A stretch of 24,475 nt of DNA from a virus. Positions 3,421 to 14,839 of the stretch are shown in pieces. The position numbers and the translations under genes are program-made. Location of the stretch: positions 1 to 24,475 of IMG/VR virus record IMGVR_UViG_3300038450_000041; one strand, given 5' to 3'. The notes beneath the pieces were generated by a model. It was given only the letters and a program-made list of their open reading frames with translations, did not search any database and had not been told where the DNA came from. Each line of letters begins with the position of its first letter. Within the stretch, counting starts at the first letter, position 1.

Positions 3421-4452
3421 TTAAGCGGCTGTCGCATACAATGTGCCGAACCCGGCGGAACTGGTCGGAGTCAGCACACCGCCTATAAGCACCATGCTTG
3501 TGTGGGCGTTGTCCCAACTTCCGGCGTTCGTGTAACAATTCGGATCTACAATTACTCTCCCGCTAGCCTGAGCGGCGGTAATCGACATGGCGCTGGTTTG
3601 GGCATGGGCCGCATTAACCGAAGTTGAAATGAAACCGCAACCTTCAAACCAGACGCAGCCAAATCCGATGGAGTTGGCGTCTACTGTTTTGATGAATGGA
3701 GTGTTGGTCGAGGAAGAAAGCCGCTGGATGAACTTGTCACGTCTGAAAGTGATGATTCCGGTTCCGGCTCCGATCAGCACGGTGCTGTTGGCCGCACTGC
3801 CCGAATCAATGGTGTAGGAACCCATCACGCAGTCTTCAACCAGCGTATCGGCGGCAGCGCTGAAATACGCAGCGTAGGCTCCCACGGCATCGTTGCCTGT
3901 GTTGACAGGCCATGCAATACCTACGTTGCGGAGAACATTGCGATCCCCCGAAACATAAACGCCGCCGGAAAGATATGTCTGGCCGTTTCCAACTACGAAA
4001 CTGACATTTTTAATCAGACAGTCGTTTGCGCTCAGAGAAAAAAGCGGAACCTGGCTTGTAAGCGCGGTCGTGGCTGTAGAAGCCCATCCTATTCTGGACC
4101 GTTGGCTGAAAGGGTTGCCATCGTTTACGCCGATAAGATGGACCCCGTCCTTCGCCCAGTTGAGAGTTGTCGATTGATAGTCCGTTGTGGAGCCTGCTGT
4201 ATTGCTCTCAGCATACATCAGAACCACATCGTTCTGATTCGCTACGGCTGCGGTTTGAGCATAAGGAAGGGTTTTGAGTGCCTGGTCCGGTCTTTGGCCG
4301 GTATTTGAATCCGAACCGCTGTAGGGTTTAACATGCCAGATATTGCCGGGTATAAATGGCAGTTCCGCCAAAATCGGCATGACCCTGGAACCGCGCACGT
4401 TTACCAATTTCACTTGCCCTTGATTGTTCGTATAGGCTATTGCACCGCCCAT
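3421..4452 (-). CDS. Right-handed beta-helix (pectin-lyase-like) virion protein, 343 aa
   Basis: Residues ~38-85 carry the hallmark of pectin-lyase-fold phage proteins: IWHVKPYSGSDSNTG, then a spaced ALKTLPYAQ and NDVVLMYAESNTAG. The remainder is a series of short beta-rungs with polar turns (FSLSANDCLIKNVSFVVGNG, NVLRNVGIAW, FEGCGFISTSV). Such proteins serve as fibres, spikes or capsid decorations. No catalytic residues can be assigned. It follows the homing endonuclease and tandem hairpins downstream of the capsid gene, so a decoration or head-fibre role is plausible. AGGAAAGG lies upstream of the ATG. Confidence 0.75.
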   Translation of the reverse strand: MGGAIAYTNNQGQVKLVNVRGSRVMPILAELPFIPGNIWHVKPYSGSDSNTGQRPDQALKTLPYAQTAAVANQNDVVLMYAESNTAGSTTDYQSTTLNWAKDGVHLIGVNDGNPFSQRSRIGWASTATTALTSQVPLFSLSANDCLIKNVSFVVGNGQTYLSGGVYVSGDRNVLRNVGIAWPVNTGNDAVGAYAAYFSAAADTLVEDCVMGSYTIDSGSAANSTVLIGAGTGIITFRRDKFIQRLSSSTNTPFIKTVDANSIGFGCVWFEGCGFISTSVNAAHAQTSAMSITAAQASGRVIVDPNCYTNAGSWDNAHTSMVLIGGVLTPTSSAGFGTLYATAA

Positions 4453-4469
4453 TTTGAATCCTTTCCTGC

Positions 4470-4500
4470 CAGTGATGGCTCACTGAGGGGCCGAAGCCCC
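4470..4500 (-). other. Tandem hairpins between HNH gene and beta-helix gene
   Basis: Two stems lie side by side: CAGTGA/TCACTG with a 4-nt loop (4470-4485), and GGGGC/GCCCC with a loop that reads UUCG on the minus strand (4487-4500). No U-run follows. They separate the endonuclease message from the beta-helix cistron and may protect or process the mRNA. Confidence 0.6.
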
Positions 4501-4509
4501 CCAGCAGGG

Positions 4510-5115
4510 TTATGAGGTTAAGTAAAATTTGTTGTAATGTCCCTTTTTCATGCCAGCCGTGCATTCAGGGCAGTATTTCCGGCACTCTTCAGATTTCGGA
4601 TAAATCCTGCCGCATTTTTTGCACGGTTGGTCATAAAGCCCATAGTGAATCCGTTGTTTCCTGAGAAATGAACGACTAATGCCGAGTTTTGCGGCAGCCT
4701 CATCAAGGCCCTTGCTATCAGCAAGAGCCTTTTGGATAGACTCTTTGTCCACGATTTTGATTTTGTACTGTCCGAGATCGTGCGCTTTGGCGTGGCAAGA
4801 TCGACACAACAATTCTTGATATTCATGCTCGTTCTTGTCGCCAGTGGTGTGATGCCCTGTAATTTCAAAAGAGTCGCCGGTTTTGCCACACTTGCTGCAA
4901 ACAAGGCCATATTGCGCAACCAACCGTTCTTTTCCGTTCCCATGTCGGCTTTTCTCTTTATGTTTGAGGTTGGCTTCATGCTTCCTATCCTTGTTTATGT
5001 GCTTTGCTTCATGAACTTCTTGGCATTTCTTCCGACAAAACTTTTGATTGTTGCCAGTCGGATAAAACTTTTTCCTGCACTCTTCACAATACCTAGGCGC
5101 AATGTTTTTTCTCAT
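4510..5115 (-). CDS. HNH homing endonuclease with zinc ribbons and HTH, 201 aa
   Basis: Domains in order: an N-terminal Cys4 zinc site (C10, C13, C27, C31); an HNH nuclease core with zinc Cys pairs C73-xx-C76 and C104-xx-C107, catalytic HH at 88-89 and CHAKAH ending at H112; a helix-turn-helix near residues 138-160 (AAAKLGISRSFLRK); and a last Cys cluster (CKKCG, CRKYCPEC). Nuclease plus HTH plus zinc fingers is the usual layout of free-standing phage homing endonucleases, which cut a cognate site near their insertion point. It sits between the capsid and beta-helix genes and breaks the structural operon. The start ATG has GGAGG 7 bases upstream, and that ribosome site lies in a strong inverted repeat (see 5117-5182), so translation is probably restricted. 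Confidence 0.92.
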   Translation of the reverse strand: MRKNIAPRYCEECRKKFYPTGNNQKFCRKKCQEVHEAKHINKDRKHEANLKHKEKSRHGNGKERLVAQYGLVCSKCGKTGDSFEITGHHTTGDKNEHEYQELLCRSCHAKAHDLGQYKIKIVDKESIQKALADSKGLDEAAAKLGISRSFLRKQRIHYGLYDQPCKKCGRIYPKSEECRKYCPECTAGMKKGHYNKFYLTS

Positions 5116-5116
5116 A

Positions 5117-5182
5117 GGACAACCTCCATTTTAAAATGTTGGGTTAATGGCAGTAACCTACACTATATTATGGAGATTGTCC
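5117..5182 (-). promoter_or_regulatory. Inverted repeat burying the ribosome site of the HNH gene
   Basis: The minus-strand RNA arm GGACAAUCUCCA (5182-5171) can pair with UGGAGGUUGUCC (5128-5117) over all 12 positions, with one U-G wobble; one further U-A pair extends it inward. The second arm contains the GGAGG ribosome site and ends one base before the ATG. Transcripts reading through from the capsid gene would contain both arms and hide the site. A transcript starting inside the loop would not. Confidence 0.75.
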
Positions 5183-5195
5183 ATTTTAAAATCCA

Positions 5196-6119
5196 TTACG
5201 ATACTTGACTCCCTAGTATAAAGCGCCAGTCCTTGAACCCGTAGGCGAACCTGAAATACATCGCCAGCTTCAAGGTGTAGGTCTCAAAATCCCAGGTGTT
5301 TTTCGGTTCGGGTTTAATCCGGTCCACCCAGAGATGATCTTCCTTCATCTGCGATTTCCAGGTGAGATACCAGTTGGAGGTCGAATAGTCGTCCAACCGG
5401 GGCAGAACGAGAAGATCATATCTTTGGTATTGGAAGTTCACGTTTCCTTCCGCCGTATCCAGGCTTTTCGGGGTCTTAACGATCTCATAGGCGGTCTCGT
5501 GAAGATTGTCGGGAACGATCAGCATTAAATCGTCTCCAACGTCGATTCGCTCTCCGAGGTCATCGCGGAAAAGCCTCATCTTGAGCCTGGCCGCTGCAAC
5601 CGCTGTTTTTGAAAGGGCCGCAGTGCTGAGGTTGTTAAAACCAACGGAAGTCGATGCGCCCGACTTGGTAAGATGCCCGGTCGAGCAAAGCGCCACGCCC
5701 TCTTCCGAGGTCATGTACTCGAAAGCCGCAGAGAAGGCGTAGACAAGGCTGTGCATTTCCGCCTTTATCTCGGTCCTTCTTGCCGCTCTCATGAGCCATG
5801 CTGCCCGGTTTGAAAGAACGCCGTACTGCTCGTCGTCCAGAAGTTTTCGCTGAAAGAGAAGGCCCCCCGAAAACTCTTTCGGCTCGATCTTCGTGTAGTA
5901 GCCGGAGAAGACGGGCAGGTAATTGATACGCCCGGTAAAAGCCGGAATGTCGGGAACGGTCCCGATTGAAAAGAAGTCCTCATACGCAGAGTCCGAAGAC
6001 ATCACCTTGAAAAGACGGTCTTTATAGCTGGGGATGTCCTTATATGTCTGCTGCTTCACGTTTTTGATATGCCCTTCCACGAGCTTGCGGAAGGATGCTG
6101 ATTCAATAATACTGGCCAT
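5196..6119 (-). CDS. Major capsid protein (Mu gpT-like, HK97 fold), 307 aa
   Basis: The length (307 aa) and sequence pattern fit the gpT-type major head subunit. There is a helical N-terminus (residues 1-45), then an E-loop-like region with FTGRINYLPV and TKIEPKEFSGGLLFQRKLLDDE. A central helical segment (WLMRAARRTEIKAEMHSLVYAF) follows, then the P-domain-type strand DDLMLIVPDNLHETAYEIV. The C-terminus ends in beta-strands (NTWDFETYTLKLAMYFRFAYG). It lies after scaffold and decoration genes, the standard order. The ATG is preceded by AAAGGAGC. Confidence 0.85.
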   Translation of the reverse strand: MASIIESASFRKLVEGHIKNVKQQTYKDIPSYKDRLFKVMSSDSAYEDFFSIGTVPDIPAFTGRINYLPVFSGYYTKIEPKEFSGGLLFQRKLLDDEQYGVLSNRAAWLMRAARRTEIKAEMHSLVYAFSAAFEYMTSEEGVALCSTGHLTKSGASTSVGFNNLSTAALSKTAVAAARLKMRLFRDDLGERIDVGDDLMLIVPDNLHETAYEIVKTPKSLDTAEGNVNFQYQRYDLLVLPRLDDYSTSNWYLTWKSQMKEDHLWVDRIKPEPKNTWDFETYTLKLAMYFRFAYGFKDWRFILGSQVS

Positions 6120-14320: not shown

Positions 14321-14839
14321 ATGGCTGAGTCCGAGAATACAATCCCTTACGGTTGCTGTCAATGTGGGTGTGGGCAAAAGACTGCATTGGCGAAATGTAC
14401 TCGTTCCGAGAGAGGAAACATCAAAGGAGAACCCGTAAGATTTATCAGTGGCCACAATCCGCAATCGCCTCATCGAAACTGGAAAGGAGGCAAGCATGTA
14501 GAATCTGATCGTCCCAATCGTGTCAGAGTATGGATGCCGAATCATCCAAGAGCGAATACCAATGGCTATGTTCGAGAACACATTCTGATAGCAGAAAGAG
14601 TCCTTGATAAACCGTTGCCCAACGGAACCGAAGTACATCATCATAGCCCTACTGATTTGGTAATATGTGAAGATCATGCCTATCACATGCTTATCCATCA
14701 GCGCGCCCATGCGTATTACGCTTGCGGGAATGCAGACTGGTTGAAATGCAATTATTGCAAGCAATATAAGGCTCCCGAAAAGGTCAAAAGATACTCCAAT
14801 GGAACTTATTACTGTCTGACCCATTTACAGCCTGAATAA
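14321..14839 (+). CDS. HNH homing endonuclease on the opposite strand, 172 aa
   Basis: The N-terminal zinc motif GCCQCGCGQKT (C12, C13, C15, C17) and a basic GHN-x-HRNWKGG linker precede the HNH core: NGYVREHILIAERVL, NGTEVHHH (H107/H108), EDHAYHMLIHQRAHA, then a last Cys set (CNYCKQY, YYCLTH). This is the common N-terminal-zinc type of phage HNH endonuclease. It is transcribed against all neighbouring genes and its last 15 bases overlap the end of the converging 126-aa gene. That fits a selfish insertion between late genes. GGGAG lies 9 bases before the ATG. It may cut DNA of related phages at this junction. Confidence 0.9.
   Translation: MAESENTIPYGCCQCGCGQKTALAKCTRSERGNIKGEPVRFISGHNPQSPHRNWKGGKHVESDRPNRVRVWMPNHPRANTNGYVREHILIAERVLDKPLPNGTEVHHHSPTDLVICEDHAYHMLIHQRAHAYYACGNADWLKCNYCKQYKAPEKVKRYSNGTYYCLTHLQPE

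Follow-up and report, generated by a model that had tools for sequence, protein, structure and literature searches.

A free-standing HNH endonuclease gene follows the major capsid gene in the window, by which we mean the whole 24,475-nucleotide stretch of viral DNA analysed here (positions 1 to 24,475 of IMG/VR record IMGVR_UViG_3300038450_000041), and its ribosome-binding site is predicted to be closed off in a long RNA stem, as at six other endonuclease starts of the same junction. We consider the following account, taken as a whole, to be probable. The HNH gene has been inserted, together with its own leader, downstream of the major capsid gene and ahead of the structured leader that precedes the next late gene. 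On RNA that starts upstream, as capsid read-through RNA does, a stem of 12-13 bp would close over the Shine-Dalgarno sequence (SD), and the nuclease would hardly be translated. The nuclease would be made from a short RNA of its own, which would begin beyond the left arm and so could not fold into the stem. The features of the junction are collected in Table 1.

Table 1. Features at and around the junction of the capsid and HNH genes in the window
Feature	Position	Strand	Basis and remarks
Major capsid gene (Mu gpT-like / PHROG major head protein)	5196-6119	minus	Pfam PF10124, 6.5e-11; PHROG 371, 3.2e-15
Capsid stop codon TAA	5198-5196	minus	sequence
Possible 12-codon leader ORF MDFKMDNLHNIV	5158-5196	minus	direct reading; ATG overlaps the capsid stop (TAATG)
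Direct repeat ATTTTAAAATGGA, copy 1	5180-5192	minus	repeat search
Possible -35 box TTTAAA (weak)	5185-5190	minus	promoter match 9/12
Left (anti-Shine-Dalgarno) arm GGACAATCTCCA	5182-5171	minus	sequence, fold
Possible -10 box TATAGT	5162-5167	minus	spacer 17; predicted RNA start ~5155, in the loop
Direct repeat ATTTTAAAATGGA, copy 2	5125-5137	minus	repeat search
Right arm TGGAGGTTGTCC, includes the SD	5128-5117	minus	sequence, fold
Shine-Dalgarno sequence GGAGG	5127-5123	minus	sequence; 7 nt, then HNH ATG 5115-5113
HNH homing-endonuclease-type gene, 201 aa	4510-5115	minus	homology to L096, L182, L078
Native structured leader of the next gene, pushed downstream by the HNH insertion	4450-4511	minus	matches the capsid-adjacent leader of L009-L012

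An HNH gene inserted after the capsid gene

The HNH protein is laid out as a zinc ribbon, an HNH core, a helix-turn-helix (HTH), and a second zinc ribbon. It is 36-44% identical to proteins of three other viral contigs (L096, L182, and L078), which match the PHROG 1271 HNH endonuclease family at 7e-8 to 3e-11, and it has the core residues HH...CxxC-H in common with them. The window protein itself gives only weak library matches (the HTH match, at 0.0012, is under the Pfam cut-off), a PDB sequence search with it returned no meaningful match, and a single-sequence structure prediction was set aside at a mean pLDDT of 61. The gene was not found in annotated phages or genome contigs, nor were the HNH proteins of its relatives found in phages. 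Judged on its HNH core and on the presence or absence of the insertion among close relatives, the window gene can be classed as that of a homing-type endonuclease, in line with the preliminary description, which had called it a capsid-adjacent homing endonuclease.

Four contigs with a capsid that is 83% identical (L009-L012) carry neither the HNH gene nor the stem. The native leader stands directly after the capsid stop codon in these contigs but 3' of the HNH gene in the window, which indicates that the HNH gene and its hairpin were inserted between capsid gene and leader. A comparison of junctions with and without the insertion had been proposed in the preliminary description; besides this absence of both gene and stem, it brought to light differing stems at other endonuclease genes, as described below. 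An intron-encoded endonuclease was ruled out, as the capsid ORF is complete and collinear with its relatives and there is no Rfam match. Four other IMG/VR contigs carry the same gene in the same place and are identical over 1900 bp, so they add no covariation to the window stem itself. A relative of the capsid gene, with no endonuclease, lies on one WOR-3 MAG contig, which is too little to name a host.

The native leader is conserved before the post-capsid gene, whether it stands after a capsid gene or after an endonuclease gene (window, L009, L014, L044, L070, L029, L090, L186, and L096). It reads YYTRCTGG, hairpin, CTGGT, hairpin, ACTGGYARR, and then an SD, an apparent three-way junction. 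Four pairs of its basal helix show changes on both sides in the nine sequences, and the leader has no Rfam match.

A stem over the ribosome site of the HNH gene

The arms GGACAATCTCCA and TGGAGGTTGTCC pair over 12 bp with one U-G, correct to the base as first described (5117-5182), and an inner A-U pair extends the stem to 13. Both GGAGG, which lies 7 nt upstream of the ATG and had been noted in one arm, and the spacer ahead of the HNH start codon (5115) are inside the stem. The left arm begins 13 nt past the capsid stop codon, which is about the limit of the footprint of a terminating ribosome.

For the minus-strand RNA 5199-5090, the predicted folding energy is -36.7 kcal/mol (z = -5.2), which none of 200 shuffles reaches, and the plus strand at the junction folds more weakly. 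Opening the HNH ribosome site would cost ~19-21.4 kcal/mol, the highest value among the 23 genes of the window (1.5-15.0 for the 22 others). When only the upstream sequence was shuffled and the SD region was held fixed, 0/200 shuffles matched this opening cost (z ~6). By length alone, a stem of at least 12 pairs, with any number of G-U, covers the ribosome site in 44/3000 shuffles (1.5%). The window stem is thus well above chance; a lone 12-bp stem is not astronomically rare, and the comparative evidence outweighs these statistics. We also looked for an intrinsic terminator and found no terminator-like U-tract 3' of the stem, so this reading was rejected. The junction RNA has no match in Rfam, and a search for the exact hairpin elsewhere returned the identical contigs only.

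Stems at other endonuclease genes of the junction

A scan for relatives of the capsid gene gave ~80 loci. LAGLIDADG genes stand directly after the capsid gene in L036/L037, L039, L048, L054, L063/L064/L066, and L081, and L078 (4031-5167) carries an HNH gene and then a LAGLIDADG gene (L078b) in tandem after one capsid gene. Searches with endonuclease proteins, which were blind to the leader, added L096 and L182 (HNH) and L100 (LAGLIDADG), all right after capsid genes, that of L096 being very diverged. We examined 12 endonuclease genes, 11 directly after the capsid gene and L078b second in its tandem.

A stem covers the SD or the start codon in seven of the 12, with lengths of 13 bp in the window, 15 in L096 (no G-U), 13 in L182, 14 in L078, 18 in L054, and 19 in both L063 and L100. 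Apart from the L063/L100 pair, the stem sequences are unrelated by eye. On read-through RNA, these leaders are predicted to need 14.7-20.7 kcal/mol to open (z 4.5-6.6). The five other genes (L036, L039, L048, L081, and L078b) have no stem; in the L078 tandem, stem and promoter are found at the first gene only.

In the matched control, none of the 44 non-endonuclease genes that come next at the same junction reaches 14 kcal/mol (maximum 13.7, median 4.3), as compared with 7/12 endonuclease genes (Fisher p = 3e-6). Since its hairpin was the reason for including the window, we also give the count for the rest, 6/11. A wider control took 260 random genes of these loci. By chance it included L096 and L078, which ranked first and joint second by z; of the 258 others, one reaches 14 kcal/mol. 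Across 67 LAGLIDADG leaders surveyed, strong stems over the ribosome-binding site (RBS) were found only after the capsid gene (L097 = L063, L101 = L054, and L100), so such stems are not general for all phage endonuclease genes.

A further LAGLIDADG gene, in L131 (1900-2000), has no capsid gene in view upstream. Its leader holds TTGACA-17-TATACT and an 11-bp stem over the start codon; with no clear SD and a modest opening cost (7.5 kcal/mol), it is a weak further case.

Pairing is also kept where related leaders have diverged. L082, closely related to L054, keeps the leader with its stem, 113 nt past the capsid stop codon, but hardly anything of the endonuclease ORF. Of the 18 pairs, 17 are kept in both L054 and L082, two of them through double changes from A-U to G-C and two through a change on one side; one pair is broken. 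Sliding the arms by 1-3 columns lowers the pairing from 97% to 28-44%. We note that this comparison involves two sequences and that its shuffle control is uninformative (127/500). Between L063 and L100, two A-to-G changes stand opposite U and leave the pairing intact.

Candidate promoters inside or beside the left arm

The preliminary description gave no route by which the nuclease could be switched on. The relatives offer a candidate in the form of promoter-like sequences inside or beside the left arm, scored here on the assumption of an E. coli-like sigma-70 consensus, from which that of the host may differ. The match is complete in L054 (TTGACA-17-TATAAT, 12/12; reached in 0/1000 shuffles) and close in L100 (TTGACA-17-TATATT, 11/12; 2/1000), L063 (TTGCCA-17-TATATT, 10/12; 12/1000), and L078 (TTGACT-17-TAAAAT, 10/12; 17/1000). 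In all four, the left arm takes in the -10 box completely or almost completely, and RNA initiated at the gene's own promoter would therefore begin 3' of the arm or of most of it.

The remaining stem-bearing leaders give lower scores. L182 is intermediate and not significant (TTGCTA-17-TAGTAT, with an extended -10), and L096 is a poor match, also not significant (TTGACT-17-TATGTC). The window candidate, TTTAAA-17-TATAGT, is weak and not significant at 9/12, a score that 79/1000 shuffles reach. In the window and L096, most of the left arm falls within the spacer between the two boxes. A promoter whose transcript would lack the arm is accordingly read with more assurance from the relatives than from the window. 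The predicted own-promoter RNAs would cost 2.6-6.9 kcal/mol to open, which is in the range of ordinary genes, and the five stemless endonuclease genes have a best promoter of at most 7/12. This association of stem and promoter rests on few, partly related cases.

Other readings of the junction

Ribosomes that finish the capsid gene might restart at TAATG, read the leader ORF through the left arm, and open the stem, in which case HNH protein would be made in proportion to capsid. The preliminary description overlooked this ORF, which could couple the HNH gene to capsid translation: its ATG (5196-5194) overlaps the capsid stop codon, and the frame covers the whole left arm and ends at 5158 in the loop. 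Against this, it is not unusual for TAATG to open a frame of 12 codons by chance, and there is no well-placed SD before the leader ATG, the nearest GGGAG being 12 nt away. In the relatives, the overlapping-ATG ORF stops before the left arm (L054, L078, and L100) or is absent (L063 and L096). Since the leader ORF is not conserved, we rank coupling second and think it unlikely, and we reject it as a general mechanism.

It is more doubtful still that the junction works as DNA and that the RNA pairing is incidental, the repeat being an operator or binding site for the HTH of the nuclease or the end of a mobile unit. The leader does overlap an exact 13-bp direct repeat with a palindromic core, ATTTTAAAATGGA, whose only two exact copies in the window are both in the leader and could be an operator; the protein has its HTH, at the sub-threshold score given above; and I-TevI, which represses its own promoter, is a precedent. 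The arms themselves point to RNA. Although their sequences vary, one of them lies over the SD or the start codon in all seven stem-bearing leaders, where the sense strand also folds better than the antisense strand (7/7), and the positions that are not Watson-Crick read as G-U on the sense strand, although the stem search admitted no other kind of mismatch. An operator as such predicts no pairing with the SD, and both could hold.

The least probable reading is that the hairpin arose by accident, or that it acts on the capsid mRNA as a processing site or by protecting the 3' end, and does not control the endonuclease gene: strong hairpins do occur right after the capsid stop codon at uninserted junctions too, but these native hairpins close over the ribosome site of the next gene in 0/44, the native hairpin is still present 3' of the HNH gene, the window stem has no terminator-like U-tract, and such stems recur strongly on endonuclease genes.

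Relation to known endonuclease leaders

Silencing of the nuclease by its RBS stem on read-through RNA, with a switch to an internal promoter, has its models in T4 I-TevI, I-TevII, and I-TevIII, and a layout like theirs is seen in L054, L063, L100, and L078 and weakly in the window. The preliminary description had cited I-TevI for silence in late read-through transcripts. The sequestration holds but the timing does not, as the RBS of I-TevI is hidden in early and middle read-through RNA and it is the late promoter whose RNA lacks the 5' arm (PMC2988022); overall, the interpretation offered there is partly supported. I-TevI is moreover an intron-encoded GIY-YIG enzyme in an early gene, whereas the HNH gene of the window stands free behind a capsid gene. 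An operator resembling the homing site over the promoter, with autorepression, has been shown for I-TevI only.

A nearer precedent is Aeromonas phage Aeh1 mobE, a free-standing HNH gene for which an RBS-sequestering hairpin has been shown; such a hairpin is implicated for T4 segB (PMC3014915, PMC2988022). Like the window gene, mobE and segB are endonuclease genes that stand free, either between genes or at a split gene. The likeness is one of layout: the neighbor here is a capsid gene and not ribonucleotide reductase or a tRNA region, and the phage is not T4. RBS-blocking stems are also found in T4 e and soc, which are not endonuclease genes; the long read-through RNA of gene e is blocked and its short own-promoter RNA is translated (PMC3014915).

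A homing endonuclease adjoins the major capsid gene in T4 as well, where segD (GIY-YIG), which has no known promoter, is found between genes 23 (capsid) and 24 (vertex) and points the other way from the capsid gene (PMC2988022); the window HNH gene, unlike segD, is co-directional. The window holds a second HNH gene (14321-14839, plus strand), of another PHROG family (PHROG 20891, 2.9e-13), which runs opposite to the surrounding genes, an orientation that recalls segD. Its ribosome site is not sequestered (z -2.3).

The capsid junction as a possible landing site

In its C-terminal half, with zinc ribbon and HTH, the window HNH protein is homologous to the corresponding half of the L054 LAGLIDADG protein (L054:4027-4761), with 40% identity over 108 residues. 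This similarity suggests a common DNA-binding module, on which one nuclease has apparently been swapped for another, and possibly a common target. The number of independent origins is uncertain, with at least one HNH lineage, whose four diverged members show no leader similarity that we noticed, and one LAGLIDADG-HTH lineage.

We tentatively entertain a broader view, which may well prove too wide, that, across a broad group of uncultured phages, homing endonucleases of differing nuclease folds recurrently land at the post-capsid junction and that the same two-part switch has been acquired there repeatedly, namely, a host-type promoter whose -10 box or spacer doubles as the arm against the ribosome site. 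If so, these elements would be expressed from their own promoter but not from late capsid mRNA. Read-through RNA from the capsid gene is presumably late, and the promoters of the relatives look like host sigma-70 promoters, so the timing may be opposite to that of I-TevI. Silence on this RNA, we infer, would keep the nuclease low when capsid mRNA is abundant.

To our knowledge, RBS-hiding leaders of homing endonuclease genes are known only from T4-like phages. The same layout now appears in unrelated uncultured phages, with HNH and LAGLIDADG enzymes that seem to share a DNA-binding module and a landing site. It has a signature that can be searched for: the SD or start codon is complementary to the -10 box or spacer of a promoter. 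These findings suggest that a selfish nuclease gene beside a capsid gene commonly has to be held in check on the main late mRNA.
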